Source of the DNA: Pseudomonas putida S13.1.2
Lineage (GTDB): Bacteria > Pseudomonadota > Gammaproteobacteria > Pseudomonadales > Pseudomonadaceae
Direction: 5' to 3'
NCBI RefSeq assembly: GCF_000498395.2
Contig: NZ_CP010979.1
Coordinates: 682,001 to 746,000, forward strand
DNA length: 64,000 bases
In this document: positions 16,851 to 60,690 of the stretch, piece after piece
Layout: every line of letters starts with the position of its first letter
Position numbering within the stretch: position 1 is the first letter of the stretch
Program-made: the position numbers and the translations under genes
Notes under the pieces: model-generated
What the model saw: only the letters and a program-made list of their open reading frames with translations
Databases searched by the model: none
What the model was told of the DNA's origin: nothing

Positions 16851-17130
16851 TATTGTTCTCGCACTAAAAGGGAGGCGTAGTCGAAGGTTACGTCTCGTAA
16901 CCACGGGGGCATTCCGCTTGGGGCGGGATACCTGCGGCCATCCTAGTGCTGGGTTGAGCGGGTCGTTTGCGACGGATGGCCATTTTTTTCATGAAACTGC
17001 CGGTGTCGCGTTTTTTTCTTTCGGACGGACAGAGGTATGCGTAAATCTCCTTACGTATGCCAGGGTAGGCACGAGAAATGCTTGCATTCGATAGAAATCA
17101 GAAAACGTTACCTTTCCATCAGGTGCCAAA
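16851..17130. promoter_or_regulatory. Divergent control region between the catabolic operon and araC-type regulator
   Basis: 280 bases without a gene between oppositely oriented mhpF and the AraC-family gene. It should contain both promoters. No operator could be identified with confidence. An AT-rich tract with TTTTTTC and GTTTTTTTC lies around 16984-17020. Confidence 0.5.
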
Positions 17131-32839: not shown

Positions 32840-34090
32840 ATGGATCGCGAACAATCCAACGTTGTTGCGCCTGACCTCGCGAGCGTCACGCACGCAGGGT
32901 TATGCCGTCGCACGCTGATCAAGCACTTAGGTACAGCCACCGGCCTCGGTATCCTGGGCTCATTGCTACCTGCAGGGTTGGTCAGCGCCGCGAGTGCCAT
33001 GTCTTCAAACAATTCTGCAAGCGGGAGTAATACCCCAATGTTCGCTTATGTCGGATCGCGCACAACCCGGGAGCGCAATGCCCGTGGTGATGGCATCACG
33101 GTCTATCGGTTGAATCAAGACGCCGGCACGCTGGAGCAGGTGCAGTTGGTCGACGACTTGGTGAATCCCTCGTTTCTTGCCCTCAATCGCGCCGGTGATC
33201 GCCTCTACACTGTTCATGGCGACCGCAGTGAGGTCAGTGCCTTCAGCGTCGACAAGGCAAGTGGGAAGCTGACATTCCTCAACCGCCAAAGCTGTGAAGG
33301 AAAGAATCCGGTGCATTTGGCGCTGGATCCGAGCGAGCGGTTCCTGGTGGTTTCCAACCATATTACCGGCACCTTGGCAGTGCTCAATGTGGAAGAAAAT
33401 GGCGCCTTGGGCGGTATCAATCAATTGCTCAAGCTTGAAGGCCCCACTGGCCCTCATCGGGTTGAGCAGCCATTCGCCAAGCCGCATTTCAACCCGTTTG
33501 ATGCAACAGGGAACTACGTTCTGGTACCGGATAAAGGCCTGGATCGAGTGTTCAGCTTCCGCTTTGACAACGGCAAGCTGCACCCTGCCGACCAGCCATT
33601 CGCTGTTGCCCGCGAGGGTTCTGGCCCGCGTCATATCGCAATGCACCCCAAAGCCGGTTTCGCTTATGTGATCAACGAGCTGGACTCAACCGTTACCAGC
33701 TACCGTTTCGACTCGCGCAGTGGTGCCCTGCAACCGTTCCAGGTGTTGCCGTCGCTGCCGGCGAGCTATACCGGCAACAGCCGCGCGTCCGAGATCGAAG
33801 TGGACCGCAGCGGGCGTTTCCTCTATGCCTCCAATCGCGGTTACGACAGCATCGCTGTGTTCAAGATTGATCAGGGAAGTGGCCTGCTGAGCCCTGTCGA
33901 CTTCGTGCCTAGCGAAGGGAAAACGCCGCGTTTCTTCAGCCTGACGCCAAATCAGCGTTTCCTGTTTGCACTCAATGAGGACAGCGACAGCATCGTGTCA
34001 TTTGCTGTCGATCCGCAGACCGGTGGTTTGAGCAAGACAGATTTTTCGATTTCGACCGGCAGCCCGGTCTGCATGATCTTTTCCGCCTGA
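32840..34090 (+). CDS. Tat-exported beta-propeller lactonase
   Basis: 416 residues, AAGGA 7 bases before ATG 32840. A twin-arginine signal (Arg23-Arg24 in CRRTLIKHLG, then a hydrophobic stretch to VSAASA) directs export of a folded protein. The rest is a seven-bladed propeller of the Lactonase family (6-phosphogluconolactonase/carboxymuconate-cyclase type), with repeated blades such as PKAGFAYVINELDSTVTSYRF and SGRFLYASNRGYDSIAVFKI. It would hydrolyse or form a lactone in the periplasm, so sugar phosphates are an unlikely substrate. It lies between acnA and an organic-acid transporter gene; a carboxylate lactone is the natural guess. Confidence 0.82.
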   Translation: MDREQSNVVAPDLASVTHAGLCRRTLIKHLGTATGLGILGSLLPAGLVSAASAMSSNNSASGSNTPMFAYVGSRTTRERNARGDGITVYRLNQDAGTLEQVQLVDDLVNPSFLALNRAGDRLYTVHGDRSEVSAFSVDKASGKLTFLNRQSCEGKNPVHLALDPSERFLVVSNHITGTLAVLNVEENGALGGINQLLKLEGPTGPHRVEQPFAKPHFNPFDATGNYVLVPDKGLDRVFSFRFDNGKLHPADQPFAVAREGSGPRHIAMHPKAGFAYVINELDSTVTSYRFDSRSGALQPFQVLPSLPASYTGNSRASEIEVDRSGRFLYASNRGYDSIAVFKIDQGSGLLSPVDFVPSEGKTPRFFSLTPNQRFLFALNEDSDSIVSFAVDPQTGGLSKTDFSISTGSPVCMIFSA

Positions 34091-45704: not shown

Positions 45705-46598
45705 TCAGCCCCCGGCAATCGGCTCCGCCAAGCCTTTTACGCCGGGGTTGAGCGCGAACACGCCGCCGGCCAGTGGCTGGTCGCTCAGGTCGATGCCTTG
45801 TGGGCGAATCGACGTCACGAACAGCGTATCCAGCTGCGGGCCGCCGAATGCGCACATGGTCGGTTTCTTTACCGGTAGCGGCAGGGCGCGGTCCAGTTTC
45901 CCTTCGGGGGTAAAGCGCAGTACCTGGCCGGCATCGATCGCGCAAATCCAGTAGCAACCTTCGGCATCTACCGCAGCCCCGTCCGGTCGGCCGGGGTGCT
46001 GGTTCATGTCGACGAATATTCGGCGGTTGTGCGGTGTGCCGCTGTCGATGTCGTAGTCGAAGGCCCAGATCAGCTGAACGCTGGGGTGCGAGTCGGAGAC
46101 ATACAGTGTTTTGCCGTCCGGGCTGAACGCCATGCCGTTGGGCACGATCAGCTTGTCCAGTCGTGCTTGCATTGGCTTTACCGTTGCGTCCGCCGTCGCG
46201 TCATATCGGTAAAGCGCACCCACCGGTTCGGCGCCCATATTTGTTTGCATCGTACCGGCCCAGAAGCGCCCCTGGCGGTCGCAACGGCCGTCATTGAAAC
46301 GCATGCCGGGCCTCGCGTGTTCGACGCTGGCGCGCTTGTCGGCAACCAGGCGACCGTCAGCCTGGGGGGTGAGGTGGAAGACCCCGCTCTCCATGGCCCC
46401 AAGCCAGTGGCCTTGCTGGCTACGGACGATGCAGCCGAGCATTTCGTCTGCGGCCCAGTGTCGGGTCTGGCCATCTGGTTGCCAGCGGTGCAGGCGGCCT
46501 GCCGGTATATCCACCCAGTACAAGGCATTTTCCTGCGGGTGCCAGACCGGGCTTTCGCCTGTGGCATTGCGTGCATCGGTAATCAGTTCGGCTGTCAT
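45705..46598 (-). CDS. SMP-30/gluconolactonase-family aldarolactonase
   Basis: 297 residues from ATG 46598; an in-frame GTG at 46613 lies next to GGAG and remains possible. Six-bladed propeller with metal-site motifs: Glu in ATGESPVWH, Asn/Asp in RFNDGRCDRQGRFW, LIVPNGMAFSPDG and YVSDS. In uronate oxidation pathways this family (UxuL) opens galactaro- or glucaro-1,5-lactone to the free aldarate. It follows the uronate dehydrogenase gene by 27 bases on the same strand, which strongly supports that role. Acts in the cytoplasm; no signal peptide. Confidence 0.85.
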   Translation of the reverse strand: MTAELITDARNATGESPVWHPQENALYWVDIPAGRLHRWQPDGQTRHWAADEMLGCIVRSQQGHWLGAMESGVFHLTPQADGRLVADKRASVEHARPGMRFNDGRCDRQGRFWAGTMQTNMGAEPVGALYRYDATADATVKPMQARLDKLIVPNGMAFSPDGKTLYVSDSHPSVQLIWAFDYDIDSGTPHNRRIFVDMNQHPGRPDGAAVDAEGCYWICAIDAGQVLRFTPEGKLDRALPLPVKKPTMCAFGGPQLDTLFVTSIRPQGIDLSDQPLAGGVFALNPGVKGLAEPIAGG

Positions 46599-46625: not shown

Positions 46626-47444
46626 TTAGTCGCCAAAAGGGCCGGCAGCGGTGAAGGCGCCACCTTGCAGGTGGGCTGTCGGGTCATCTGTAACAGGCTT
46701 TGGCTGCTGCTCCAGGGCCGGGCGGAAGCGCTCGGCACTGTCCTTCGGATTAAAGTCCAGGTGTGCGGCGTGGCGGTTGCTCCACCAGAGGTCGCGGTTG
46801 GCCGAGACACCGTACACCACGGTATGGCCGACGTTTTCGGCAAGCAATGCGCGCTCTACCAGATGTGCCAGGTCGCCGTAGCTCAGCCAGGTGGACAGCA
46901 TGCGCACATTGCGTGGTTCGGGGAACGAAGAGCCGATGCGCAGGCTGACGGTTTCGATGCCGTAGCGGTGGAAGTAGAACGTGGCCAGGTCTTCGCCGTA
47001 GGCCTTCGACAGCCCGTAGTAGCAGTCTGGTCGGCGCGGCGAATGCGCATCTACCTGTTCGCCTTGAGGGTAAAAGCCGGTGACATGGTTCGAGCTGGCG
47101 AACACCACGCGCTTGATGCCGTGCTTTCGGGCGGCCTCATAGATGTGGAAGGTACCGACGATGTTGGCTTGCAGAATCTCTTCGAAGGCACGCTCGGTGG
47201 AGATGCCGCCCAGGTGCACGATGGCGTCCACATCCTGGGCCAGGGCCAATACGCCGGCCTTGTCGGCCAGGTCGCAGTTGATGACTTGCTCATGCTCGCC
47301 TGCAGCCGCTGCCATGGGGCTGATGTCTGATACGCGCACGATGTTGGCGTGTGCTTGCAGTGCTTCGCGAAGCACTTGCCCGAGCCCGCCGGCGGCGCCG
47401 GTGAGCAGCAGGCGGTTGAGGGGTTTGCGGTTGGTCGTGGTCAT
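46626..47444 (-). CDS. udh: NAD-dependent uronate dehydrogenase
   Basis: 272 residues from ATG 47444; the upstream 36 codons to 47552 are not conserved. Short-chain (extended) Rossmann motif TGAAGGLG near the N terminus and catalytic Tyr-x3-Lys in CYYGLSKAYGED. Close to P. putida Udh: SSNHVTGFYPQGE, IGSSFPEPRNVRMLSTWLSY, and a C-terminal GGAFTAAGPFGD. It oxidises galacturonate or glucuronate to the 1,5-lactone, the substrate of the lactonase encoded next. Confidence 0.92.
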   Translation of the reverse strand: MTTTNRKPLNRLLLTGAAGGLGQVLREALQAHANIVRVSDISPMAAAAGEHEQVINCDLADKAGVLALAQDVDAIVHLGGISTERAFEEILQANIVGTFHIYEAARKHGIKRVVFASSNHVTGFYPQGEQVDAHSPRRPDCYYGLSKAYGEDLATFYFHRYGIETVSLRIGSSFPEPRNVRMLSTWLSYGDLAHLVERALLAENVGHTVVYGVSANRDLWWSNRHAAHLDFNPKDSAERFRPALEQQPKPVTDDPTAHLQGGAFTAAGPFGD

Positions 47445-47518
47445 TGTTGGATGCCTTTTGCTGAAACTGCATGAGGGTGCCGTGGTGCAACGACACCGGC
47501 ATGGTCGGGCGGTTGCCC

Positions 47519-48244
47519 TTACAGGAAGTTGTACTGGATACCCAGGCGCCAACGGGCCTGGCGATCGTCCGTATAGCTGTTGACCTTGATGTCACCCACT
47601 TCCATGAAGGGCGCCCACTGTTTGTTGAGCTTGTACTTGATGATCAGGTTCTGCTCGTAGTCGCGCTTCTTGTTGTCGTAGCGGATGTAGTCGGTGGTGA
47701 AGTGGATGTACTGGTATTCGAATGCCCACGGGCCGCTGGGGGTATAGCCGAGCCAGCCTTCAAGGCGGGTGGTGTTCTGGTTGTCCTTGGCGCGGTCCGC
47801 CTTGCTGTGGTCGATCTGGTCGCGGTCGAGGCTGCGTGCGTCGTGGCGTACGCGCGTGGCGACGTACCAGGTGTCGCTGAGCTTGTAGTTGTACTTCAGG
47901 CCGAACTTGTAGGTGGTTGCGTCCTTGGAGCTGTCCATCTGGAAGGCGGGGGTCCAGGTCGACTTGGGGCTCATCTTGTAGTTGTAGTCCACGGTGAACT
48001 CATGGCCGTTGTTGACCATGTTGTCGTAGGCGACGTCTTCGCGGTCGCCGGCAGTCTTGTATTTGATTTCTGCGGCAAACCCCAGGCCGCTGTCCTTGCG
48101 GTAGCTCAGCTTTATCCGGTCGGAGTGAATGCTGTCGTCTTCGGTGTACCCATGCCGGTAGTTGATGCTGGCGGAGTCCGCGCAGGCGTAGAACGACAGG
48201 CCGAGGGTGCTGGCGGCGATAAGGCGGCGAAGTGTGTTGTTCAT
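47519..48244 (-). CDS. KdgM-family oligogalacturonate porin
   Basis: 241 residues with signal peptide (MNNTLRRLIAASTLGLSFYA, then CADSASINYRHGY). Alternating amphipathic strands and the N-terminal SINYRHGYTEDDSIHSDRIK pattern plus the C-terminal ARWRLGIQYNFL match the KdgM family, 12-stranded channels for oligogalacturonides. First gene of the leftward operon porin - udh - lactonase, 74 bases before udh. It would admit products of the secreted polygalacturonase encoded at 57311. Confidence 0.88.
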   Translation of the reverse strand: MNNTLRRLIAASTLGLSFYACADSASINYRHGYTEDDSIHSDRIKLSYRKDSGLGFAAEIKYKTAGDREDVAYDNMVNNGHEFTVDYNYKMSPKSTWTPAFQMDSSKDATTYKFGLKYNYKLSDTWYVATRVRHDARSLDRDQIDHSKADRAKDNQNTTRLEGWLGYTPSGPWAFEYQYIHFTTDYIRYDNKKRDYEQNLIIKYKLNKQWAPFMEVGDIKVNSYTDDRQARWRLGIQYNFL

Positions 48245-48586: not shown

Positions 48587-49741
48587 ATGATCATTACTGC
48601 AGTAAACGTCCAGGTGTTTTCCTACCCCACGCGCCGCGCTGTAGACAGCGCCGGCCATGCCCATCCGGGCGACGTGACCCAGGCCAAGATGGCCTTGCTA
48701 CGCATCAAGACTGAGTGCGGCAACGAAGGCTTCGCCTTCGGCGCTCCCGAGCTGATCCGCCCGTATGTGCTGGATGGCTTCGTGCGCAAGGTGCTGGTCG
48801 GCGCCAATGCCTTCGACCGCGAAAAAATCTGGCACGACCTCGCCCACTGGCAGCGCGGCAGCGCAAGCCAGCTCACCGACCGCGCCCTGGCCCTGGTCGA
48901 ACAGGCCCTGTGGGACTGGGCCGGGCGCAAGCTCAAGGTGCCGGTGCACAAGCTCATCGGTGGCTACCGCGACAAGGTCCCGGCTTACGGTTCGACCATG
49001 TGCGGTGACGAGCTGCCGGGCGGCCTGTCGACCCCTGAAGAGTACGGCCGCTTCGCCGAGACCCTGGTCAAGCGCGGCTACAAGGCGATCAAGCTGCACA
49101 CCTGGATGCCGCCGGTGTCGTTCGCCCCGAGCGTGAGCATGGACATCAAGGCCTGCGCCGCCGTACGTGAAGCGGTCGGCCCGGACATCGCGCTGATGAT
49201 CGACGGCTATCACTGGTACAGCCGCACCGAAGCGCTGACCGTCGGCCGTGCCCTGGAGAAGCTGAATTTCGCCTGGTTCGAAGAGCCGATGATGGAAGAC
49301 TCGGCCGAGTCCTACGCGTGGCTGGCCGGCCAGTTGGACATCCCCGTGCTGGGCCCGGAAAGCCTCGGTGGCAAACACCTGAGCCGCGCCAGTTGGGTCA
49401 AGAACGATGTCTGTGACATCCTGCGTGCCGGCGTTGCCGGGGTCGGCGGTATCGCCCCGTGCCTGAAGGTCGCGCACATGGCCGAAGCGTTTGGCATGGA
49501 TTGCGAGATCCACGGCAACGGCGCGGCCAACCTGGCGGTGGTCGGCGCGATCAAGAACTGCACCTGGTACGAGCGCGGCCTGCTGCACCCGTTCCTCAAC
49601 TATGACGAAGTACCGGCCTACCTCAAGCGCCTGGTCGACCCGATGGATGAAGACGGCTTCGTGCACCTCTCCGACCTGCCTGGCCTGGGGGAGGAGATCG
49701 ACTTCGACTACGTCGAGACCAACACGCTGCAGAGCTTCTGA
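48587..49741 (+). CDS. Enolase-superfamily enzyme, mandelate racemase subgroup (probable sugar-acid dehydratase)
   Basis: 384 residues. Metal ligands Asp206 (LMIDGYHW), Glu232 (WFEEPM) and Glu258 (LGPESLGG) are in place. The base motif is Lys169-Leu-His171 (KLH), not the common KxK, and His309 in EIHGNG replaces the C-terminal base. These enzymes abstract the proton next to a carboxylate, usually dehydrating aldonates or aldarates. As first gene of the pectin operon it may dehydrate galactarate or a galacturonate-derived acid, substituting for GarD, which is absent here. Substrate not proven. Confidence 0.83.
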   Translation: MIITAVNVQVFSYPTRRAVDSAGHAHPGDVTQAKMALLRIKTECGNEGFAFGAPELIRPYVLDGFVRKVLVGANAFDREKIWHDLAHWQRGSASQLTDRALALVEQALWDWAGRKLKVPVHKLIGGYRDKVPAYGSTMCGDELPGGLSTPEEYGRFAETLVKRGYKAIKLHTWMPPVSFAPSVSMDIKACAAVREAVGPDIALMIDGYHWYSRTEALTVGRALEKLNFAWFEEPMMEDSAESYAWLAGQLDIPVLGPESLGGKHLSRASWVKNDVCDILRAGVAGVGGIAPCLKVAHMAEAFGMDCEIHGNGAANLAVVGAIKNCTWYERGLLHPFLNYDEVPAYLKRLVDPMDEDGFVHLSDLPGLGEEIDFDYVETNTLQSF

Positions 49742-49810: not shown

Positions 49811-51421
49811 ATGAGCGTTCTCCCCAAATTCTGGGCGGGGGTCCTGGCCGCATCGCTGGCGATGACGTCGGTACCTGCCGCTTTCGCCAAGACCCCCGCC
49901 GACCAGTTGATCGTCGGCATGAGCATGATCAACCTGCTGTCGCTCGACCCGGCCGCCGCCACCGGCCTGGATGTGTCCGAGGTCAATGCCAACCTCTACG
50001 ACATGCTGCTGGTGCAGGACGTCAAGCAGCCGGACCAACTGGTACCGGCCCTGGCGCAAAGCTGGCAGGTCAGCGACGACCGCAAGACCCTGACCTTCAC
50101 GCTGCGCCCCGGCGTGACCTTCCAGTCGGGCAACCCGCTGACTGCCGAAGACGTCGCCTGGTCGTTGCAGCGCGTGCTCAAGCTCAATCTGGCCCTGGCC
50201 TCGACATGGAAGGCTTACGGCTTCACCGCCGGCAACGCCGCCCAGTACCTGCGCGCCGCCGACGAGCACACCTTTGTCCTCGAGCTGCCGCGGCCAACCG
50301 ACCCGATGTTGGTGCTCAACACCCTGGCGACCTCGCCCAGCGCCTTTATCCTCGACCGCAAAGTGGTCCAGCAACACCAGAAGGGCGACGACATGGGCGG
50401 CGCCTGGCTGACCACCCACGCCGCCGGCAGCGGCCCGTTCATCCTCAATGACTGGCGCGCCAACGATGTGATCCTGATGAGCCGCTACGACGGTTACTGG
50501 GGTGGCCCGGCCAAGCTCAAGCGCATCGTCATGCGCAACATGACCGAGTCGCAGTCGCTGCGCCTGATGGTCGAGCGCGGTGACCTGGACCTGGCCAAGG
50601 GCATGTCCGCACCCGACATCGAGGCCCTGGAGAAGTCCGACAAGGTGCGCACCCAGACCGTGCAGCGCGGGACACTCTACTACGTTGCCCTTAGCGTCAA
50701 GAACAAGCCCTACGATGACGCTCGCGTGCGCCGCGCGGTGCGTTCGCTGATCGACTATCAAGGCATCAACCAGACCGTCATGCCGCACTACGGCCAGCTC
50801 AACCAGCGCCCATTGCCGCTCGGCCTGCCGGCACGGCTGGACGATCCGGGCTACACCCTGAACGTCGCCGAGGCGAAAAAACTGCTGACCGAAGCCGGTT
50901 ACCCGAATGGCTTCAAAACCACCATCCGCGTGCTCACCGAGCCGCCATTCATCAATATCGCCTCCAGCCTGCAGGCGACCCTGGCCCAGGCCGGCATCCA
51001 GGCGACCATCGTCACCGGCACCGGCAACCAGATCTACGGCGCCATGCGCGAACGCAGCTTCGACATCCTGGTCGGCCGCGGCGGTGGCGGGGCCGAGCGT
51101 CATCCGCATTCGAGCCTGCGGACCCTGGTGTACAACCCGGACAACCGCGACGAAGCCAAGCTAAGCAACTTCCAGGGCTGGCGCACGTCGTTCTACAGCC
51201 CCGAGCTGAACGCGCTGATCGAGCAGGCCGAAGTCGAGCCTGACAAGACCAGGCAACTGGCCCAGTACCAGCAGATCCAGAAGACCCTGGACGCGCAGGT
51301 CGGGGCGATCCTGCCGGTGTCGCAGATGACCGACACCGTGGTGGTCTACCACGATGTTCAGGATTACCAGACCCACAGTGCGGCCACCACCCGCTACAAA
51401 GACGTCTACAAGTCGCGATGA
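49811..51421 (+). CDS. Family 5 solute-binding protein of a Dpp-type ABC transporter (copy 1)
   Basis: 536 residues from ATG 49811, AAGG upstream; the frame open to 49745 is not used. Signal peptide ending PAAFA-KTPADQL. SBP family 5 features: LVPALAQSWQVSDDRKTLTF, FQSGNPLTAEDVAWSLQRVL. It binds a peptide-like or oligosaccharide ligand in the periplasm. The setting with KdgM and GH28 makes a short galacturonide plausible. Clear paralogue of the protein encoded at 52581, same length. Confidence 0.9.
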   Translation: MSVLPKFWAGVLAASLAMTSVPAAFAKTPADQLIVGMSMINLLSLDPAAATGLDVSEVNANLYDMLLVQDVKQPDQLVPALAQSWQVSDDRKTLTFTLRPGVTFQSGNPLTAEDVAWSLQRVLKLNLALASTWKAYGFTAGNAAQYLRAADEHTFVLELPRPTDPMLVLNTLATSPSAFILDRKVVQQHQKGDDMGGAWLTTHAAGSGPFILNDWRANDVILMSRYDGYWGGPAKLKRIVMRNMTESQSLRLMVERGDLDLAKGMSAPDIEALEKSDKVRTQTVQRGTLYYVALSVKNKPYDDARVRRAVRSLIDYQGINQTVMPHYGQLNQRPLPLGLPARLDDPGYTLNVAEAKKLLTEAGYPNGFKTTIRVLTEPPFINIASSLQATLAQAGIQATIVTGTGNQIYGAMRERSFDILVGRGGGGAERHPHSSLRTLVYNPDNRDEAKLSNFQGWRTSFYSPELNALIEQAEVEPDKTRQLAQYQQIQKTLDAQVGAILPVSQMTDTVVVYHDVQDYQTHSAATTRYKDVYKSR

Positions 51422-51487: not shown

Positions 51488-52525
51488 ATGTTAGTTTCGA
51501 CTGCCTCTGTGCTGGGCACGCGCGTGTCTGGCACTGCCCGACGGGCCAGCACGGTCCTGGTGACCCTGCTCGGTCTGTTGGCGCTGACCTTCTTCATTGG
51601 TCGGGTGATGCCGCTGGACCCGGTGCTGGCCGTGGTCGGGCCGGACGCCGACAGCTCCACCTACGATCAGGTGTACCGGGCGATGGGCCTGGACCAGCCG
51701 ATCTGGGTGCAGTTCGGGCTGTACCTCAACGACCTGCTCCACGGTGATTTCGGCAACGCCCTGCTGACCGGCCACCCGGTGCTGGAAGACATCAAGCGGG
51801 TGTTCCCGGCGACCATCGAGTTGGCCACCCTGGCAATTCTCTTCGGCATCGTCATCGGCTTGCCACTGGGCGTGGTCGCGGCCAGTAACCAGGGCCGCCT
51901 TGGCGACCATGTGGCACGGGTGATCACCCTGTTCGGTTACTCCACGCCGATCTTCTGGGTCGGCATGATGGGCCTGCTGGTGTTCTACGCCTGGCTCGGC
52001 TGGGCCGGCGGGGCAGGGCGCATCGACCTCGCCTACGACGGCATGGTGCCGGACATCACCGGCCTGCTGCTGATCGACACGGCCCTGGCCGGGGATTGGG
52101 AAGCCTTCACCAGCGCGCTGCGGCACATCGTCCTGCCGGGGCTGATCCTGGGCCTCAACTCGGTCGCCTACATCAGCCGCATGACCCGCAGCTTCATGCT
52201 CGAACAGCTGTCCCAGGAATACATCATCACCGCCCGGGTCAAGGGCCTGTCGCGCCGCCAGGTGGTCTGGGGCCATGCGTTTCGCAACATCCTCGTGCAG
52301 CTGCTGACGGTGGTCGCTTTGGCCTACGGCTCGCTGCTCGAAGGCGCGGTACTGATCGAAACGGTGTTTGCCTGGCCCGGTTTCGGTCAGTACCTGACCA
52401 GCAGCCTGATGCTCGGTGACATGAACGCGGTGATGGGCTGTGTGCTGGTGATCGGGCTGATCTTCGTGGCCCTGAACCTGATCAGCGACGCCCTGTACAA
52501 GGTGTTCGACCCAAGGACCCGTTAA
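51488..52525 (+). CDS. Dpp-type ABC permease, DppB-like
   Basis: 345 residues, six membrane segments. DppB features: FFIGRVMPLDPVLAVVG, YRAMGLDQPIWVQFGLYL, and the EAA loop EYIITARVKGLSRRQVVWGH. Forms the inner-membrane channel with the DppC-like protein. It separates the two binding-protein genes, an uncommon arrangement. Confidence 0.92.
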   Translation: MLVSTASVLGTRVSGTARRASTVLVTLLGLLALTFFIGRVMPLDPVLAVVGPDADSSTYDQVYRAMGLDQPIWVQFGLYLNDLLHGDFGNALLTGHPVLEDIKRVFPATIELATLAILFGIVIGLPLGVVAASNQGRLGDHVARVITLFGYSTPIFWVGMMGLLVFYAWLGWAGGAGRIDLAYDGMVPDITGLLLIDTALAGDWEAFTSALRHIVLPGLILGLNSVAYISRMTRSFMLEQLSQEYIITARVKGLSRRQVVWGHAFRNILVQLLTVVALAYGSLLEGAVLIETVFAWPGFGQYLTSSLMLGDMNAVMGCVLVIGLIFVALNLISDALYKVFDPRTR

Positions 52526-52580: not shown

Positions 52581-54191
52581 ATGAAAACTGTACTTCCGAT
52601 CCTGCGCCTGAGCCTGCTGGGTGCGATGCTGGCACTGGGGCCGATGGCCGCCGTGCAGGCCAAGACCCCCGCCGACCAGTTGATCGTCGGCATGAGCATG
52701 GTCAACCTGTTTTCCATCGACCCGGCCAACGCCCCGGGCCTGGATGCCTCCGGGGTCAACGCCAACCTGTATGACACGCTGGTCAAGCGCGACCAGGGCA
52801 ACCCGGAAAAACACCTGCCACAGTTGGCCGAACGCTGGGAGATCAGCGAAGACGGCAAGCAGGTCACCTTCCACCTGCGCAGCGACGTCAAGTTCCATTC
52901 CGGCAACCCGCTGACCGCCGAAGACGTGGCCTGGTCGCTGTACCGCGTGATGAAACTCAACTTCGGCCTGGCCACCACCTGGAAGGCCTACGGCTACAGC
53001 GTCGACAACATTCAGGGGCTGATCCGCGCCACTGACCCGCACACCCTGGTGGTCGAGCTGCCGCAGCCCGCCGACCCGCTGCTGCTGATCGACTCGCTGG
53101 CGATCTCGCCCAGCGCGGTCATCGTCGACCGCCAGGAAGCCTTGAAGCACGAGAAGGACGGCGACCTGGGCGCCGCCTGGCTGGTCACCAACGAGGCCGG
53201 CAGCGGCCCGTTCACCCTGACCAAGTGGAGCGCCAACGACGCCTTGGTGATGACCCGCTTCGACGGCTACTGGGCGGGCCCTGCAAAAATGAAGCGGGTG
53301 CTGGTGCGGCACATGACCGAGTCGCAATCACTACGGCTGATGCTCGAGCGCGGTGACCTCGACCTGGTCTACGGCATGGCCGCGCCAGACATCAAGGCCA
53401 TCGAGCGCTCGCCCAAGCTGCAGGTGCAACCGCTGCAGCGCGGCACCATGTACTACGTGGCGATGAGCATGAAGCAGCCCGAATTCGCCAACCAGAAAGT
53501 CCGCGAAGCGGTGCGCAACCTGATCGACTACAAAGGCATCGACGAGCAGGTCATGCCGCACTACGGCATGCTCAACCAGCAGCCGATGCAGCTTGGCCTC
53601 GACGCCCGCCTGCCGGACCCAGGCTACAAGATGGATGTCGCCAAGGCCAAGGCGTTGCTCGCCGAAGCCGGCTACCCGCAAGGCTTCGCCACCACCATCC
53701 GGACCTTGTCCGAGCCGCCGTTCATCGACATCGCCGCGCGCATGCAGTCGACGCTCGCCGAAGGCGGGATCAAGGCCAGCATCGTCACCGGCACCGGCAA
53801 CCAGGTGTATGGCGCGATGCGCGCGCGCAACTTCGAAATGATCGTGGCGCGCGGTGCCGAGCGCTACCCGCACCCGTACTTCAGCCTGCGCACCTTTGTC
53901 TACAACCCGGACAACAGCGACAGCGCGGGCCTGCCCAACTTCCAGGGCTGGCGCGCGTCGTTCTTCGATCAACAGCTCAATGCGCTGATCGACCAGGCGG
54001 GCATCGAGCGTGACGCCGCCAAGCGCGTGAGCCTGTACCACCAGGCCCAGCAGCGCTACGACCAGCAGGTCGGGCCGATCATGATGCTCTCGCAGATGAC
54101 CGACACCGCGGTGAGCGCGGTGGACGTCAAGGGCTTTACCGGCGATGACGCCGAGGCGACCCGTTACCTGGGCGTCTACAAGCAACGCTGA
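52581..54191 (+). CDS. Family 5 solute-binding protein of a Dpp-type ABC transporter (copy 2)
   Basis: 536 residues from ATG 52581, AAGGAC upstream. Signal peptide ends AAVQA-KTPADQL. Shares with copy 1 the mature N terminus KTPADQLIVGMSM, FHSGNPLTAEDVAWSLYRVM and VTGTGNQ(I/V)YGAMR, so the two are duplicates that have since diverged. The leader ACTATAAAAA just before the start is also shared. Two binding proteins may widen the substrate range of one permease. Confidence 0.9.
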   Translation: MKTVLPILRLSLLGAMLALGPMAAVQAKTPADQLIVGMSMVNLFSIDPANAPGLDASGVNANLYDTLVKRDQGNPEKHLPQLAERWEISEDGKQVTFHLRSDVKFHSGNPLTAEDVAWSLYRVMKLNFGLATTWKAYGYSVDNIQGLIRATDPHTLVVELPQPADPLLLIDSLAISPSAVIVDRQEALKHEKDGDLGAAWLVTNEAGSGPFTLTKWSANDALVMTRFDGYWAGPAKMKRVLVRHMTESQSLRLMLERGDLDLVYGMAAPDIKAIERSPKLQVQPLQRGTMYYVAMSMKQPEFANQKVREAVRNLIDYKGIDEQVMPHYGMLNQQPMQLGLDARLPDPGYKMDVAKAKALLAEAGYPQGFATTIRTLSEPPFIDIAARMQSTLAEGGIKASIVTGTGNQVYGAMRARNFEMIVARGAERYPHPYFSLRTFVYNPDNSDSAGLPNFQGWRASFFDQQLNALIDQAGIERDAAKRVSLYHQAQQRYDQQVGPIMMLSQMTDTAVSAVDVKGFTGDDAEATRYLGVYKQR

Positions 54192-54247: not shown

Positions 54248-55171
54248 ATGCCGATGATTGCCAACATGTCTTCTACCCAAGCAAGCGCCAAGCCGCAGGC
54301 CGACACCACGCCGGCTTCCAGCCTCGACGCCTTTTACAAAAGCAGCCTGCGGGTGCTGCGCCACCTGTTGCGCAACCCCATGACCCTGGCCGGGCTGCTG
54401 GTGGCCGTGCTGCTGATCGTGGTCGCCACCTTTGCCCCGTGGATCGCCACCCATGACCCGGTGGTGCAGAACCTCGCCAACGCCCTGCAGGCCCCTGGTG
54501 CCGCGCACTGGTTCGGCACCGACGAATACGGCCGCGACATCTTCAGCCGGTTGGTCTACGGCTCACGCATCACCCTCTACATCATTACCCTGGTGACCGT
54601 TATCGTCGGACCGATCGGGCTGTTCATCGGCACTGTGTCGGGCTACTACGGTGGCATCGTCGACACGGTGTTCATGCGCATCACCGACATCTTCATCTCG
54701 TTCCCCAGCCTGGTCCTGGCACTGGCGTTCATCGCTGCCCTTGGCCCTGGCCTGGAGCATGCCGTGGTCGCCATCGCGCTGACCTCGTGGCCACCGATCG
54801 CACGGCTGGCAAGGGCTGAAACCCTGTCGCTGCGCAAGGCTGACTTCGTTGTCGCGGTCGAGCTGCAGGGCGCCTCGTCGACGCGCATCATCCTGCGTCA
54901 CATCGTGCCGATGTGCCTGTCGTCGGTGATCATCCGCCTGACCATGAACATGGCCGGGATCATCCTCACCGCTGCGGCGCTGGGCTTCCTCGGCCTTGGC
55001 GCACAGGCGCCGCTGCCGGAGTGGGGCGCGATGATCTCCACCGGTCGACGCTACATGCTCGAATGCTGGTGGCTGGTGGCGGTACCGGGTGCGGCGATCA
55101 TGCTGGTGAGCCTGGCGTTCAACCTGCTGGGCGATGGCCTGCGGGACATTCTCGACCCGCGTAGCGAGTAA
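54248..55171 (+). CDS. Dpp-type ABC permease, DppC-like
   Basis: 307 residues, cytoplasmic N-terminal tail of about 40 residues, then the DppC pattern: HWFGTDEYGRDIFSRLVYGS and the EAA loop LRKADFVVAVELQGASSTRI. Partners the DppB-like protein. Several ATGs cluster at the start (54248, 54254, 54266); the first is used. Followed by the ATPase gene after 11 bases. Confidence 0.92.
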   Translation: MPMIANMSSTQASAKPQADTTPASSLDAFYKSSLRVLRHLLRNPMTLAGLLVAVLLIVVATFAPWIATHDPVVQNLANALQAPGAAHWFGTDEYGRDIFSRLVYGSRITLYIITLVTVIVGPIGLFIGTVSGYYGGIVDTVFMRITDIFISFPSLVLALAFIAALGPGLEHAVVAIALTSWPPIARLARAETLSLRKADFVVAVELQGASSTRIILRHIVPMCLSSVIIRLTMNMAGIILTAAALGFLGLGAQAPLPEWGAMISTGRRYMLECWWLVAVPGAAIMLVSLAFNLLGDGLRDILDPRSE

Positions 55172-55182
55172 CTGGAGGCTTT

Positions 55183-56022
55183 ATGTCGTCGCTCAAACTC
55201 AACGTCGAAGCGCTCAACGTACGCTTCGTCAACGGCAAGACAGAAATGCACGCGGTGCGCGATGTGTCGTTCACCCTTGGCCGGGAAAAACTGGCCATCG
55301 TCGGCGAGTCCGGCTCGGGCAAGTCGACGGTCGGGCGCAGCTTGCTCAAGCTGCACCCCGGCAGCACGCAGATCACCGCCAAGGCCCTGCAGTTCGGCGA
55401 TGTCGACCTGCTCAGCGCCAGCGAAAAGGCCATGCAGAAGATCCGTGGCCAGCGCATCTCGATGATCATGCAAGACCCCAAGTACTCGCTCAACCCGGTG
55501 GTCAAGGTTGGCGACCAGATCGCCGAGGCGTACCTGGCGCACCACAAGGCCAGCCGCAGCGAGGCACGCGAGCGGGTCATGCTGATGCTGGAAAAGGTCC
55601 ATATCCGCGACCCGAAACGCGTCTACAACCTGTACCCGCATGAAGTCAGCGGCGGCATGGGCCAGCGCATCATGATCGCCATGATGGTCATCACCAACCC
55701 GGAGGTGATCATCGCCGACGAGCCGACCTCGGCACTCGACGTGTCGGTGCGCCAGCAGGTGCTCAACGTGCTCGAAGAGCTGGTGGTCGAGCAGCAGATG
55801 GGGCTGATCTTCGTCAGCCACGACCTCAACCTGGTGCGCAACTACTGTGACCGGGTGTTGGTGATGTACGCCGGGCGGGTGGTCGAGTCGCTCGCCGCGT
55901 GCGACCTGCAGTATGCCGAACACCCTTATACCCGTGGCCTGCTGGCGGCCTTGCCGAGCATGGACAACCGCCGCCCGCGCTTGCCGGTACTGCAACGCGA
56001 CCCGCTCTGGCTCACCTGCTGA
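55183..56022 (+). CDS. Dpp/Opp-type ABC ATPase, DppD-like
   Basis: 279 residues with GGAGG upstream. Walker A GESGSGKST near residue 43, signature VSGGMGQRIMIA (a Met where LSGGQ is usual), Walker B IIADEPTSALD, switch SHDLNLV. At 279 residues it is shorter than typical DppD (about 325): the C-terminal oligopeptide/dipeptide domain, which in relatives can carry an iron-sulphur site, is reduced to HPYTRGLLAALPSMDNRRPR and a short tail. Confidence 0.92.
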   Translation: MSSLKLNVEALNVRFVNGKTEMHAVRDVSFTLGREKLAIVGESGSGKSTVGRSLLKLHPGSTQITAKALQFGDVDLLSASEKAMQKIRGQRISMIMQDPKYSLNPVVKVGDQIAEAYLAHHKASRSEARERVMLMLEKVHIRDPKRVYNLYPHEVSGGMGQRIMIAMMVITNPEVIIADEPTSALDVSVRQQVLNVLEELVVEQQMGLIFVSHDLNLVRNYCDRVLVMYAGRVVESLAACDLQYAEHPYTRGLLAALPSMDNRRPRLPVLQRDPLWLTC

Positions 56023-56032
56023 GGTAACTGAC

Positions 56033-56809
56033 ATGTCCATGATCCAAGCACAATCGCTGAACCTGAGCTTCGGCGTTGGCGCCACCCTCAACCAGGTGCT
56101 GCACGACGTCGACCTGACCGTCGAGGACGGCGAGTCGTTCGGCCTGGTCGGTGAGTCGGGCTCCGGCAAGACCACCGTGCTGCGCTGCCTGGCCGGCCAG
56201 TACCGGCACTGGAGCGGGGCGCTGAGCATTGCCGGCGGTGCGTTGCAGCACAAGCTGCCCAAGGAGCACTTTCGCAAGGTGCAGATGGTCTTCCAGGACC
56301 CCTACGGCTCGTTGCACCCGCGGCACACCATCGACACCGCCTTGCGCGAGCCGCTGACCATTCACGGCATGGCTGATCGCGACGACCGGATCAACGACAT
56401 TCTGGTCAAGGTCGGCCTCAATGACAGCTTCCGCTACCGCTATCCGCACCAGTTGTCGGGCGGGCAGCGCCAGCGTGTGGCGATTGCCCGCGCGCTGATC
56501 CTCGAGCCGCGTGTGTTACTGCTGGATGAGCCCACTTCGGCGCTGGATGTCTCGGTGCAGGCGGAGATCCTCAACCTGCTGGCAGACCTGCGCCAGCGCG
56601 AGAAGCTCACCTACCTGATGGTGACCCACGACCTGGGGGTGGTCAGCCACCTGTGCGACAAGGTCGCGGTGATGCAGCAAGGGCGCATCGTCGAGCGCCT
56701 CGACAGCCAAGCGTTGAGCCAGGACCTCGCCCGTCATGACTACACCCGCATGCTGGTCCAGGCCAGCCGCGACTTCAGCGCCGAATCGCCGCGCGCCGCC
56801 TCTGCCTGA
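56033..56809 (+). CDS. Dpp/Opp-type ABC ATPase, DppF-like
   Basis: 258 residues from ATG 56033, GAGGTAAC upstream. The frame open back to 55913 overlaps the previous gene and is not used. Walker A GESGSGKTT, VFQDPYGSLHPRHTI in the Q-loop, LSGGQRQRVAIARAL, LLLDEPTSALDVSVQ, THDLGVV. It also lacks the usual long C-terminal extension. Second ATPase of the putative oligogalacturonide transporter. Confidence 0.92.
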   Translation: MSMIQAQSLNLSFGVGATLNQVLHDVDLTVEDGESFGLVGESGSGKTTVLRCLAGQYRHWSGALSIAGGALQHKLPKEHFRKVQMVFQDPYGSLHPRHTIDTALREPLTIHGMADRDDRINDILVKVGLNDSFRYRYPHQLSGGQRQRVAIARALILEPRVLLLDEPTSALDVSVQAEILNLLADLRQREKLTYLMVTHDLGVVSHLCDKVAVMQQGRIVERLDSQALSQDLARHDYTRMLVQASRDFSAESPRAASA

Positions 56810-56878: not shown

Positions 56879-57247
56879 ATGCCTCATTGCATTATCGATT
56901 GCCCGGCCAGCTTGGCTGAGCGGGTTGGCGAGCAGACGCTGCTGGCCGCCGTGCACGACGCCATCGATGCCAGCGGGCTGTTCAAGCCCGGCGACATCAA
57001 GGCGCGGCTGAACACCTTCAGCCATTGCCGCTGCGGCGCCGGGCAGGATGATTTCGTGCATGTCGCGCTGTACCTGTTCGCCGGGCGCAGCGCCGAGCAG
57101 CGGCGCAGCCTCGCCTCGGCGGGGGTGGCGGCGCTGGTCGGCCTGCTGCCCGAGGTCGAGGCACTATCAATGGATGTGAGGGAAATGGCCCGGGAGACCT
57201 TCGTCAACCGCAGCCAGTACCTCGAGCAAGCCGCGTTGACGGCCTGA
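56879..57247 (+). CDS. 5-carboxymethyl-2-hydroxymuconate isomerase-like tautomerase
   Basis: 122 residues, complete. MPHCIIDCPASLAE at the N terminus with Pro1 available as catalytic base after Met removal, and the helical segment LAAVHDAIDASGLFKPGDIK followed by CGAGQDDFVHVALYLFAGRS, match the CHMI (HpaF) branch of the tautomerase superfamily. No other homoprotocatechuate gene is near. In a pectin operon it may tautomerise an unsaturated or 2-oxo uronate-derived intermediate. Co-directional with the ABC genes and 63 bases before the GH28 gene. Confidence 0.8.
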   Translation: MPHCIIDCPASLAERVGEQTLLAAVHDAIDASGLFKPGDIKARLNTFSHCRCGAGQDDFVHVALYLFAGRSAEQRRSLASAGVAALVGLLPEVEALSMDVREMARETFVNRSQYLEQAALTA

Positions 57248-57310
57248 GCCACGCGGCTGGGCCGCTCAAGCGTGGCGTTATCAATGGCAAAAACAAGGAA
57301 GATAAAAACC

Positions 57311-59125
57311 ATGCCGTATGCACACCCTGCTGTCGCTGCACGCAAACACCCACTGGCGGGTGCACTGCTGAGTGCCCTGGCCATGGGCTGCAGCCTGCCG
57401 CTCTGGGCGCTGGACGCGCCCGCCAAACTCCAGGTGCCGACGCTGGCCTACGATGAGCAACAGATCATCCTGGTCTGGGAGAAGCCGGCCGACCACGCCG
57501 AGATCGTCGATTACCATGTCTATGGCAATGGCAAGCTGCTCGGTGGCAGCAACGCCAACAACGACCAGGTCTCACCGGCCAAGCCTTACATAGACCACTT
57601 CTACCAGCAGGACACGCAGAACTTCCATCACCGCATCGCCATTCACAGCTTCACTGCCCAAGGGCTTGCGCCCGATACTGAATACCGCTTCACCGTGCGT
57701 TCGGTCGATCGCAACGGCAAGGAGTCGGCCGACAGCCCTGTGGTGGTGCAGCGAACCACGGCCGTCCCGGCACTGTTTGACGTGCAGCAGTACGGTGCCA
57801 AGGGTGATGGCAAGGCGCTCGACACGGCCGCCATCCAGCGTGCCATCGACGCTTGCAGCAAGGGCTGCAAGGTGCTGCTGCCTGCCGGCACGTACAAGAG
57901 CGGGGCGCTCTACCTCAAGAGCAACATGACCCTGGAAATCGCCGAGGGCGCTACCCTGTTGGGCTCCGAGCGTGCCGAGGACTACCCGCGCGAAGGCTAT
58001 ATCCAGTACCCGTATTCCACCACCGTGCGCCCGGCCTCGCTGATCAACGCGTTGCCGCGCGACCCGCAGGCGCATCAGGCCTTCGAGAACATCCGCATCG
58101 TTGGCAAGGGCACGATCGACGGCAATGGCTGGAAGCGTAACCCGGATGTGCTCGACGAGCGCGGGCAAGCCTTGCCCTTCTACCTGCCCAGCGACAACAC
58201 CCGCTACATGCACGACGGCGTGCTGGCCAAGGCGCAAGTAGAGCGGGCGGTTGCCGAGGGCATGAATGTCAAGGACGCCTACGGCCAGATGCGCTCGTCG
58301 CTGATTACCCTGCGCAATGTGACTAACGTGTTCTATGGCGGCTTCACGGTGGTCAACCCGGCCTATCACGGCATCATGAACCTGGAAACGCAGAATGTGG
58401 TGCTGGCTAACACTACGCACCGTACCTACGACGCCAACAACGGCGACGGTATCGAGTTTGCCAACAGCCGCGGCGCGCTGGTGTTCAACAACTTCTTCGA
58501 CACCGGTGACGACTGCGTCAACTTCGCCGCTGGCACCGGTGCGGGTGCGGTCCACCAAAAGCCGCAGGAAGATGCCTGGATCTTCAACAACTATTTCCGC
58601 AAAGGCCATGGAATGATCGTGGCGGGCAGCCACACCGGCGCGTGGATTCAGAACATCCTGGCCGAGGACAACGTCTCGGATGGCACCGATGCCGGGCTGC
58701 GCATGAAAAGCACCAACTTCATGGGCGGTGGCGCACGCCACGTGACCTTCCGTGATTCAGCCATTCGCAATACCGCAAAACAGGCCTTCATCTTCACCCT
58801 GGATTACAACGACCCGAATGCCAAGCTCGACTACAAGCGCTCGACGGTGGCGGGGCAGTTTCGGGATATCACGGTCAGCGACGTGAGCGTGGAAAACGCC
58901 AGCACCGCTGCCATCGAGGTGAAGGGCGATAGCAGCCATGGCGCCTGGCATCAGGGGCTGGTGTTCGAGCGTGTACGTTTCAGCGGGCCGGCCCCGGTCA
59001 AGATCGATGGCCTGAAAGATTCGCGCTTCGTCGGGCTTCGCTTCACCCACACCGGGGGCGCCAACCCTTGGCAAGTACAGGGCAGCCAAGGGCTGGCCTT
59101 CACGGATGTGGAGCCTGCGCCTTAG
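57311..59125 (+). CDS. Secreted GH28 exo-polygalacturonosidase with fibronectin III domain
   Basis: 604 residues from ATG 57311, AAGGA about 9 bases upstream; an in-frame GTG at 57272 is rejected. Signal peptide ends near LPLWALDA. Residues about 35-145 form a fibronectin type III domain, as in Erwinia PehX and Thermotoga-like exo-enzymes. The GH28 beta-helix carries the four signature sites: Asp379 in NNGDGIEF, Asp400-Asp401 in TGDDCVNF, His433 in GHGMIV and Arg464/Lys466 in RMKS. It releases mono- or digalacturonate from pectate outside the cytoplasm. It stops 2 bases short of the convergent gntR stop. Confidence 0.9.
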   Translation: MPYAHPAVAARKHPLAGALLSALAMGCSLPLWALDAPAKLQVPTLAYDEQQIILVWEKPADHAEIVDYHVYGNGKLLGGSNANNDQVSPAKPYIDHFYQQDTQNFHHRIAIHSFTAQGLAPDTEYRFTVRSVDRNGKESADSPVVVQRTTAVPALFDVQQYGAKGDGKALDTAAIQRAIDACSKGCKVLLPAGTYKSGALYLKSNMTLEIAEGATLLGSERAEDYPREGYIQYPYSTTVRPASLINALPRDPQAHQAFENIRIVGKGTIDGNGWKRNPDVLDERGQALPFYLPSDNTRYMHDGVLAKAQVERAVAEGMNVKDAYGQMRSSLITLRNVTNVFYGGFTVVNPAYHGIMNLETQNVVLANTTHRTYDANNGDGIEFANSRGALVFNNFFDTGDDCVNFAAGTGAGAVHQKPQEDAWIFNNYFRKGHGMIVAGSHTGAWIQNILAEDNVSDGTDAGLRMKSTNFMGGGARHVTFRDSAIRNTAKQAFIFTLDYNDPNAKLDYKRSTVAGQFRDITVSDVSVENASTAAIEVKGDSSHGAWHQGLVFERVRFSGPAPVKIDGLKDSRFVGLRFTHTGGANPWQVQGSQGLAFTDVEPAP

Positions 59126-59127
59126 CT

Positions 59128-59874
59128 TCAGGCCTCGCTGTAAAAAGCCTGTAGCCGTTGCGCCTCACGCAGGCGCGTACGGCTGTTGCTCAGGTGCAGG
59201 TACATGGCAGCGCGCGCCGCATCAACCTGGCGGCTGGCGATGGCATCGTAGATCTGCTGATGTTCGGCGTTGATACCGGCCAGGTAGGTGCTGCGGTTGC
59301 TTTGGCCGGTGTAGGCAGAGTTCATGCGCGTGCGGGGGATCATCTTGGTGCCCAGATGCTTCATGATATCGATCAGGTACTGGTTGCCTGCGGCCTTGGC
59401 AATTTTCAGGTGGAACTGGAAATCGGCGTTTGTCGTGCTGCCGGATTTTTCCGGGCCCTGCATCAAGGCTTCAAGTGCTTGATGCAGTTCTTCCAGCGCT
59501 TGCGGCGTGGCCCGTTCGGCGGCCATGCCGGCGGCTTGCACTTCAAGGCTGAGGCGGTATTCCAGCAGGTCGAGCACATCGGACAACAGGCTGATGGTTG
59601 CGGGCCCCACGTTGAAGCTCTCCGGCGCCGGCATGTCCAGCACGAAGGTGCCCACACCGTGGCGGGTCTCGACCAGGCCCGCTGCCTGCATGCGCGACAA
59701 CGCTTCGCGTACTACCGAGCGGCTGACACCTTCGGTTTCGATCAGTGTGGCTTCGGTCGGCAGCTTGTCACCCCGCTTGAGCGTGCCCTCGCGCATGCGT
59801 TCGGCAAAGCGCTCGACCAGTGCTTCGGCCAGGCGGCGGGGCTGTTGAGGGGGGCTGGCGGCAGGGTTCGGCAT
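59128..59874 (-). CDS. FadR-type GntR regulator
   Basis: 248 residues. N-terminal winged HTH (RGDKLPTEATLIETEGVSRS, VVREALSRMQAAGLVETRHG) and all-helical FCD effector domain with metal-binding His/Asp pattern (FQFHLKIAKAAGNQYLIDIM, EHQQIYDAI). FCD proteins commonly bind small carboxylates; KdgR/ExuR/GudR-like members control uronate genes. Divergent from the second gntR at 59971. Likely local repressor of the pectin operons. Confidence 0.9.
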   Translation of the reverse strand: MPNPAASPPQQPRRLAEALVERFAERMREGTLKRGDKLPTEATLIETEGVSRSVVREALSRMQAAGLVETRHGVGTFVLDMPAPESFNVGPATISLLSDVLDLLEYRLSLEVQAAGMAAERATPQALEELHQALEALMQGPEKSGSTTNADFQFHLKIAKAAGNQYLIDIMKHLGTKMIPRTRMNSAYTGQSNRSTYLAGINAEHQQIYDAIASRQVDAARAAMYLHLSNSRTRLREAQRLQAFYSEA

Positions 59875-59970: not shown

Positions 59971-60690
59971 ATGGCTTCTGCCCCCCCGGAAAAACGCCTG
60001 AATCTCGCCCAGCAACTGGTGCATGACCTGTCGCAGCAGATTCGCTCGGGTGAATTGCCAGCGGGTAGCAAATTGCCCACCGAAGAAGCTGTGACCAAAG
60101 CGCGAGGCGTAAGCCGTACCGTGGTGCGTGAAGCCATTTCTCGGTTGCAGGCCGAAGGCCTGGTCGAAACCCGCCGTGGTATCGGCACCTTCGTTGTAGA
60201 CGCCATCCCGGCAGGTGACTTCCAGAGTACCAGCCCTGGAATGGGCGATGCTTACAACGAGGTGGCGATCATCGAGCTGCGGCTTTGCCTGGAGGTCGAG
60301 GCGGCTGCCATTGCTGCCCAGCGTGCTACCGCAGGGCAACTGGCTGCCATGCGGGCGGCGCTGGATGAGGCCGTTGATACGCAGTCAGCGCCCTGCATGC
60401 GAACCGACTTCGAGTTTCACCTGCGCATAGCCCGATGCACGGGCAACAGCTTTTTCATCGACACCATGACCCATCTCGGGCGTACCTTGTTGGCTGCGGC
60501 CCAGCAAGCCGTGCCCGGGGGCGATGCCCAGCAGCGGGCACTGGAGGCGCTGGAGCGCGAGCAAGTGCATGCCGCGATCACCCGCAAGGATGCCGGTGCT
60601 GCCCGTGCTGCCATGCGGCTGCACCTGGTCAACTGCCTGACACGCGCCCAGCGAAGCATCACCCAAGACGAACGGGGTGCCGAGCCGTAG
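59971..60690 (+). CDS. FadR-type GntR regulator, paralogue
   Basis: 239 residues from ATG 59971, AAAGG 7-8 bases upstream. HTH segment SKLPTEEAVTKARGVSRTVV and REAISRLQAEGLVETRRGIG align with those of the gntR product at 59128; FCD domain with TDFEFHLRIARCTGNSFFID. The two are clearly paralogous. This one could sense a different intermediate or control the downstream nic region or the pectin genes; the sequence does not decide. Confidence 0.9.
   Translation: MASAPPEKRLNLAQQLVHDLSQQIRSGELPAGSKLPTEEAVTKARGVSRTVVREAISRLQAEGLVETRRGIGTFVVDAIPAGDFQSTSPGMGDAYNEVAIIELRLCLEVEAAAIAAQRATAGQLAAMRAALDEAVDTQSAPCMRTDFEFHLRIARCTGNSFFIDTMTHLGRTLLAAAQQAVPGGDAQQRALEALEREQVHAAITRKDAGAARAAMRLHLVNCLTRAQRSITQDERGAEP

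Follow-up and report, generated by a model that had tools for sequence, protein, structure and literature searches.

What a protein of the 5-carboxymethyl-2-hydroxymuconate isomerase (CHMI) family is doing in a pectin operon of Pseudomonas putida S13.1.2 is the question raised by this locus. The window, that is, the whole stretch of DNA that was analysed, comprises 64,000 nucleotides. In the first-pass annotation the gene at 56879-57247 was described as an orphan CHMI-type tautomerase lying between ABC transporter and polygalacturonase genes, with the other genes of the homoprotocatechuate pathway missing here, and a new substrate was suggested, for example an enol or unsaturated sugar acid made by the enolase-superfamily enzyme encoded from 48587. 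This interpretation was partly supported by the analysis described below.

The gene consists of an ORF of 122 codons plus a stop codon (57245-57247), starts with ATG followed directly by a proline codon and is preceded by AAGGA, a Shine-Dalgarno-like sequence. Its product matched the CHMI family of Pfam (PF02962) with 41 bits (E 3e-10; cut-off 26.5). The median dN/dS was 0.15 among 20 full-length orthologs of the 22 identified (151 pairs with dS 0.1-1.2), which shows that this is a real gene, kept by purifying selection. The AlphaFold2 model of the protein, built as a monomer with 34 sequences as input, reached a mean pLDDT of 92.4. A Foldseek search with this model returned 3e6q, a putative CHMI from P. 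aeruginosa, at rank 1, directly followed by the designed cages 4nwp and 4nwq; CHMI from E. coli (1otg) stood at rank 8 and further members of the tautomerase superfamily, including MSAD and cis-CaaD, came lower. From this model the 122-residue protein is predicted to have the tautomerase-superfamily fold, and the assignment to the CHMI family is upheld by the family match and the modelled fold.

The features around the gene are collected in Table 1. Six ABC transporter genes are placed upstream of the tautomerase gene on the same strand, two of them encoding substrate-binding proteins. The tautomerase gene has the strand of both its neighbours, from which it is separated by 69 bp on the ATPase side and 63 bp on the GH28 side, and no terminator-like site was found between the ATPase gene and the GH28 gene. 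Its placement between ABC and polygalacturonase genes, as first annotated, is thus correct, and the enolase-superfamily enzyme is also real by its family match. The AlphaFold model of this last protein was poor (pLDDT 39.5). The structures that it matches over its full length are presumably those of the Agrobacterium galactarate dehydratase III (GalrD-III), and the window enzyme is of the galactarate-dehydratase kind. Work of Groninger-Poe on "galactarate dehydratase-III" is cited in the review PMC6353982.

Table 1. Features of the pectin/galacturonate operon region (positions in the window)
Feature	Position	Strand	Basis or remark
SMP-30/gluconolactonase-family lactonase, UxuL-like by context	45705..46598	-	Pfam match
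Uronate dehydrogenase	46626..47447	-	314 bits to 6mfh, 274 bits to 3rft
KdgM-family oligogalacturonate porin	47519..48244	-	Pfam match
Enolase-superfamily enzyme	48587..49741	+	full-length match to 1rvk/4hcd/4mmw, 610 bits over 380 residues
Substrate-binding protein 1, SBP_bac_5-type	49814..51421	+	Pfam match
ABC transporter permease	51488..52525	+	family matches
Substrate-binding protein 2	52581..54191	+	60% identical to substrate-binding protein 1
ABC transporter permease	54248..55171	+	named from sequence
ABC transporter ATPase (first)	55183..56022	+	ATPase named from sequence
ABC transporter ATPase (second)	56033..56809	+	ATPase named from sequence
CHMI-like tautomerase-superfamily protein, 122 aa	56879..57247	+	Pro1, Lys40, Arg42, Arg69 (= CHMI Arg71)
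GH28 polygalacturonase with fn3 domain	57311..59125	+	PF00295; ATG at 57311, same frame open from GTG at 57272
FadR/GntR-type regulator	59128..59874	-	family match
Second FadR/GntR-type regulator, divergent	59983..60690	+	family match

The oxidative galacturonate pathway, as outlined in PMC6353982 and PMC9007349, is composed of uronate dehydrogenase (Udh), a lactonase of the Gli/Gci or UxuL type, a dehydratase, KdgD and KGSA dehydrogenase. Udh, a lactonase and a dehydratase of these kinds are encoded in the window, with a KdgD-like gene placed elsewhere in the genome (C1:1226152); the pathway as outlined in those two sources has no tautomerase. The role of UxuL-like lactonases is treated in PMC9007349, according to which, in P. 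putida KT2440, the lactonase PP_1170 is important on both glucuronate and galacturonate, and PP_1171, the uronate dehydrogenase, is important on glucuronate. The operon is the oxidative galacturonate route, as outlined in PMC6353982, with an oligogalacturonide front end. In some relatives a gene for KdgD (TIGR03249, 441 bits, cut-off 374) lies between the ATPase gene and the tautomerase gene, and the same insertion contains a dehydrogenase whose best NCBIfam match is of the alpha-ketoglutaric semialdehyde kind (542 bits, below the cut-off of 770).

Some minor features of this gene set were also noted. Two substrate-binding proteins with 60% identity in one ABC operon perhaps serve different forms of oligogalacturonides; 18 genomes of the genus have only a 57-60% match to the binding protein and may possess a single one. 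A second lactonase, 68% identical to that of the window, is encoded at G000:C1:6412031-6412900 and is perhaps the counterpart of KT2440 PP_1170.

A first possible explanation is that the gene encodes an additional, misplaced CHMI that acts in homoprotocatechuate degradation. The PF02962 match and the retention of Pro1 and Arg71 are in line with this. Nevertheless we consider it very improbable. Pro1, Arg40 and Arg71 are given as key residues of CHMI in PMC11641302, and in the alignment to 1otg the protein keeps Arg71 (here Arg69) and Arg42 but has Lys at the place of Arg40. A better-placed CHMI-family gene exists in the same genome, adjoining a gene for the HpaD dioxygenase (TIGR02298, 453 bits, cut-off 316) at G000:C1:834838, 89 kb past the window, which ends at 746000; its product scored 109.5 bits with PF02962 and shares 20% identity with the window protein. 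Moreover the HpaF equivalog model NF011605 gave the window protein 35.2 bits against a cut-off of 215, although the hpaD-linked copy fails too (47.8 bits), so that this model alone does not discriminate. Among the 42 ORFs of the window that were run, five of which matched nothing, there were no matches to homoprotocatechuate families at the thresholds applied, and for these ORFs the claim that no other such gene is found here holds, with the pair of this genome lying outside the window. Compared with E. coli HpaF/HpcD (1otg), the protein has the same PF02962 family, fold, Pro1, Arg71 equivalent and Arg42, but differs by Lys at the Arg40 place, by another operon and by failing the HpaF equivalog model. 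A homoprotocatechuate function was rejected on these grounds, and to this extent the suggestion of a new substrate stands, the classical one being unlikely. The meta-cleavage lower-pathway genes at 14900-16904 (DmpG-type aldolase, acetaldehyde dehydrogenase), 40 kb off, belong to a different aromatic route.

The residues were compared in an alignment of 32 of the 54 locus sequences together with the window protein and the hpaD-linked copy; near-duplicates and the loci L009, L016 and L079 are among the sequences omitted. Pro1 follows Met directly in the window protein and in all 34 aligned rows, and Arg69 (CHMI Arg71) is present in 34/34. As the catalytic proline has to be the N-terminal residue, the protein is expected to be cytosolic, with no signal peptide. 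Lys occupies the Arg40 place in all 33 non-HpaF rows and Arg does so in the hpaD-linked copy. Cys7, Asp29, Cys51 and Asp56 are invariant within the clade of operon copies and missing from the other aligned sequences, which suggests a specialised function. The best structure match, 3e6q (39 bits with phmmer), shares Lys40 and Arg42 with the window protein, whereas it is without Cys3, Cys7, His25, Cys51 and Asp56 of the operon clade.

Two deviations within the operon clade were observed. Residue 50 (Met1 numbering) is Cys in the window protein and Tyr in the other 19 aligned rows of the clade, and in the operon copy at L064:9912-10277 (genome G055) the Gly-Arg motif reads Arg-Arg, possibly a case of early decay.

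Orthologs with at least 69% identity were found in 22 of the 298 genomes of the genus, its own genome included, the next group being at 41-49%. The closest named genomes are those of P. putida W15Oct28 (98%) and P. reidholzensis (97%). The tautomerase gene is placed directly before the GH28 gene in all 22, and also in the 14 loci of named genomes (14/14), which overlap with these. The pairing is kept even where genes for KdgD, the semialdehyde dehydrogenase or a chemoreceptor are inserted upstream, while the flank to the right of GH28 differs between loci. Measured by match ends, the tautomerase and GH28 genes lie 9-73 bp apart in 34 of 35 loci, the exception being L014 with 379 bp; the gap between the ATPase and tautomerase genes ranges from -3 to 4253 bp owing to the inserted genes (33 loci, L009 and L049 not being measurable). 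Moreover the divergence of the tautomerase tracks that of five operon proteins (r 0.75, reached by 0 of 2000 permutations; 21 operons, G076 omitted), and it diverges at twice their rate. The tautomerase gene thus belongs to the oxidative pectin/galacturonate operon, co-localised with it in 22/22 genus genomes, and the neighbourhood conservation proposed as a check in the first-pass annotation was found for the pair.

Three peculiarities of single sequences should be mentioned. In L016 (P. sivasensis), near 10001-10366, the tautomerase gene is split over two frames, which perhaps indicates ongoing loss or a sequencing error, and the same applies to a sister-clade copy in L079, near 9806-10264. 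Apparent internal TAA or TGA codons in orthologs proved, in the sequences inspected, to be ordinary stop codons of slightly shorter proteins.

The gene is not present wherever the operon is. A GH28 ortholog occurs in 35 of the 298 genus genomes, which include all 22 with the tautomerase gene and 13 without it. Ten of these 13 have the operon, with GH28 placed after the ATPase, the KdgD or the chemoreceptor gene; in the remaining three (G001, G086, G164) GH28 is located apart. The tautomerase gene is therefore missing from 10 of 32 GH28-containing operons, and all 10 retain the dehydratase. In the ATPase-GH28 gaps of these 10 no remnants of CHMI were detected by tblastn with E up to 10, three weak pieces with E 0.12 to 1.1 being taken as chance. 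On a tree of 31 of the 32 operons (G076, whose operon is split over contigs, was omitted) the presence of the gene required 8 changes, against a mean of 8.6 for shuffled labels (826 of 2000 shuffles gave 8 or fewer), that is, it is as scattered as the shuffled labels and shows no clustering. Co-divergence along with scattered absence is read here as vertical inheritance with repeated loss. A replacement by the lactonase or KdgD in genomes lacking the gene was not found, both being present with or without it; of the 35 genomes with this GH28, all have a KdgD-like match, which is partial in G001, and 34 have a lactonase-like one.

The binding protein of the transporter was found in 53 of the 298 genus genomes, namely those with the 32 GH28-containing operons and 21 others. 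Among the 21 genomes that have the transporter but no GH28 beside it, none had an ortholog of at least 69% identity. Six such GH28-less operons (L108-L110, L112-L114) were read; dehydratase, transporter and porin were present in them and the tautomerase gene in none. Within the genus the tautomerase gene follows GH28, not the dehydratase, in a comparison that is uncorrected for, and confounded by, kinship. This association with GH28 rather than with the dehydratase counts against the dehydratase product as the substrate.

A substrate derived from cut polymeric pectin could be proposed instead, such as the unsaturated galacturonate or 4-deoxy-5-ketouronate that would come from oligomers cut by lyases and set free by GH28, with the protein standing in for KduI or KdgF. 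The gene indeed occurs only where GH28 is in the operon (22/32, against 0/21 of the other genomes with the transporter, kinship uncorrected), and a PL1 pectate lyase is encoded in 14 of the 22 gene-positive genomes. However PL1 occurs at a similar frequency in the operon genomes that lack the gene (5 of 10; Fisher P 0.70), and the genome of the window has no PL1 and no PF04962 match. We regard this explanation as unlikely, and links to PL1 and to KduI were set aside on the same counts; many of the PF04962 matches in other genomes are, we believe, IolB. In a search that covered PL1, with PL2, PL3, PL9, PL10, PL22 and KduD outside it, the products of PL1 are poor candidate substrates, and the unsaturated sugar acid of the initial proposal, if it is one derived by PL1, is not favoured.

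Outside the operon clade the relatives lead to other surroundings. When 398 genomes of the phylum were searched with a profile built from the operon clade and the sister clade, 68 had matches (E<=1e-6), a few of the same genus included. In 20 regions around the best relatives outside the genus, tblastn (1e-10) found no Udh, lactonase, porin, dehydratase, binding proteins, permeases, GH28 or KdgD. The matches that it did give were to ABC ATPases of a generic kind in L152 and L163 and to a chemoreceptor in L159. The neighbours of these relatives, named from their sequences, include triosephosphate isomerase, ribosomal proteins and glyoxalase-like and hydroxyacid-dehydrogenase-like genes. In 12 sister-clade loci (41-49%) no other gene of the operon was found, and none of 10 genomes outside the genus with a homologous binding protein had a tautomerase match (E<=1e-6) beside it. 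Among the loci examined the link to pectin is thus confined to one Pseudomonas clade and one metagenome bin labelled Paucimonas (L014). Random neighbourhoods in other genomes were named in the first-pass annotation as a refuting outcome, and by this standard the wider subfamily fails, 0/20 phylum regions and 0/12 sister-clade loci having pectin-operon enzymes. The superfamily itself is known; the protein is a divergent member of it whose context is specific to one clade.

Four sister-clade copies (L068, L073, L079, L070) have as neighbours either an OprD-like porin and gcv genes or phenylalanine-hydroxylase-like genes (phhA), and they are equally uncharacterised.

This distribution raises the possibility that the gene is a passenger, an orphan CHMI-like tautomerase with a housekeeping or detoxifying role that once landed in the operon and is retained there for the sake of co-expression, none of the compounds of pectin catabolism being its substrate. 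The spread of the subfamily over the phylum in regions without specific operon enzymes, the porin/gcv or phhA surroundings of the four sister-clade copies and the scattered absence from the 10 operons would all agree with it. What argues against it is that all 22 orthologs stand directly before GH28 despite upstream insertions and a changed right flank, and that residues restricted to the operon clade (Cys7, Asp29, Cys51, Asp56) suggest a specialised function. We hold the passenger explanation to be nearly as probable as the reading preferred below.

The reading that we prefer, to which we give a probability of about one in three, is that the gene encodes an accessory tautomerase, acting through Pro1, that ketonises an enol-pyruvoyl intermediate, perhaps the product of the dehydratase, in oxidative galacturonate catabolism. 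Galacturonate or oligogalacturonate, supplied by GH28 and the KdgM porin, would be imported by the ABC transporter, and uronate dehydrogenase and the lactonase would yield galactarate. The enolase-superfamily dehydratase (48587) would then remove water, giving the enol of 2-keto-3-deoxygalactarate. With Pro1 serving as base/acid and Arg69 and Lys40 holding the carboxylates, the tautomerase could ketonise this enol, or one closely related to it within the pathway, for KdgD to take, and it would matter most at high flux from pectin hydrolysis. We infer both the tautomerase activity in this pathway and the intermediate that would be taken.

An enolase-superfamily galactarate dehydratase forms an enol-pyruvoyl compound before its ketone, and the enol-keto tautomerisation of the superfamily is the last chemical event of sugar-acid dehydration, which makes such enols a fitting class of substrate. 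These enols also ketonise unaided, and this fits with an enzyme that is helpful but dispensable, as the 10 of 32 GH28-containing operons without the gene would have it. On the other hand, in dehydratases of the enolase superfamily the enol is usually ketonised while still on the enzyme, which counts against the proposed role, and the absence of the gene from GH28-less operons having the same dehydratase is a poor fit unless the flux differs because of pectin hydrolysis. The enol from 48587 suggested at the outset is fitting in its chemistry but less so in the distribution of the gene, which follows GH28 and is absent from 10/32 GH28-containing operons and from 6/6 GH28-less ones. It is only tentatively that we would propose a tautomerase-superfamily enzyme dedicated to the catabolism of pectin sugar acids, which captures and ketonises an enol of the pathway, for instance that of the galactarate dehydratase.

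As described in PMC5818174, three enzymes of the superfamily have one reaction in common, in which a pyruvoyl moiety undergoes enol-keto tautomerisation with the help of Pro1. The CHMI-like subgroup comprises 1767 sequences, the great majority uncharacterised; the reaction of its founder is this same tautomerisation and, in what that source states of the subgroup, no member is tied to sugar-acid catabolism (PMC5818174). The protein might also catalyse another type of reaction, a hydration or decarboxylation similar to those of cis-CaaD or MSAD, on 2-ketoglutarate semialdehyde or on a by-product of the dehydratase. The return of MSAD and cis-CaaD by Foldseek, the Lys at the Arg40 place and the catalytic diversity of the superfamily (PMC5818174) lend something to this idea; yet the sequence falls in the CHMI family, to which the same source assigns no reaction other than tautomerisation, and we judge such a reaction quite improbable.

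If the preferred reading, ketonisation of a pathway enol, is true, the gene would add an optional, so far unrecognised step to the oxidative galacturonate pathway and would provide a function for part of the uncharacterised Lys40 clade of CHMI-like proteins, a subgroup in which most members are without known function. Activity on the dehydratase enol would moreover mean that the "spontaneous" ketonisation in sugar-acid pathways is sometimes assisted by an enzyme. With a clade locked into one defined catabolic operon, the choice of candidate substrates shrinks to a few sugar acids, which are open to preparation and assay, and natural controls are provided by near relatives of the operon that have or lack the tautomerase gene. 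Among literature titles that link tautomerases or CHMI to galacturonate, galactarate or polygalacturonase none was relevant (Bouvier 2019 and Groninger-Poe 2014 being outside this scope).

Two further loci of the window were noted. A 7-bladed beta-propeller lactonase (PF10282) is encoded at 32840-34087 beside an aconitase-family protein, possibly another module for sugar acids or tricarboxylates. At 61503-63983 there is a long ORF whose translation resembles a molybdopterin aldehyde oxidase subunit to which CxxCH motifs of cytochrome c are joined.
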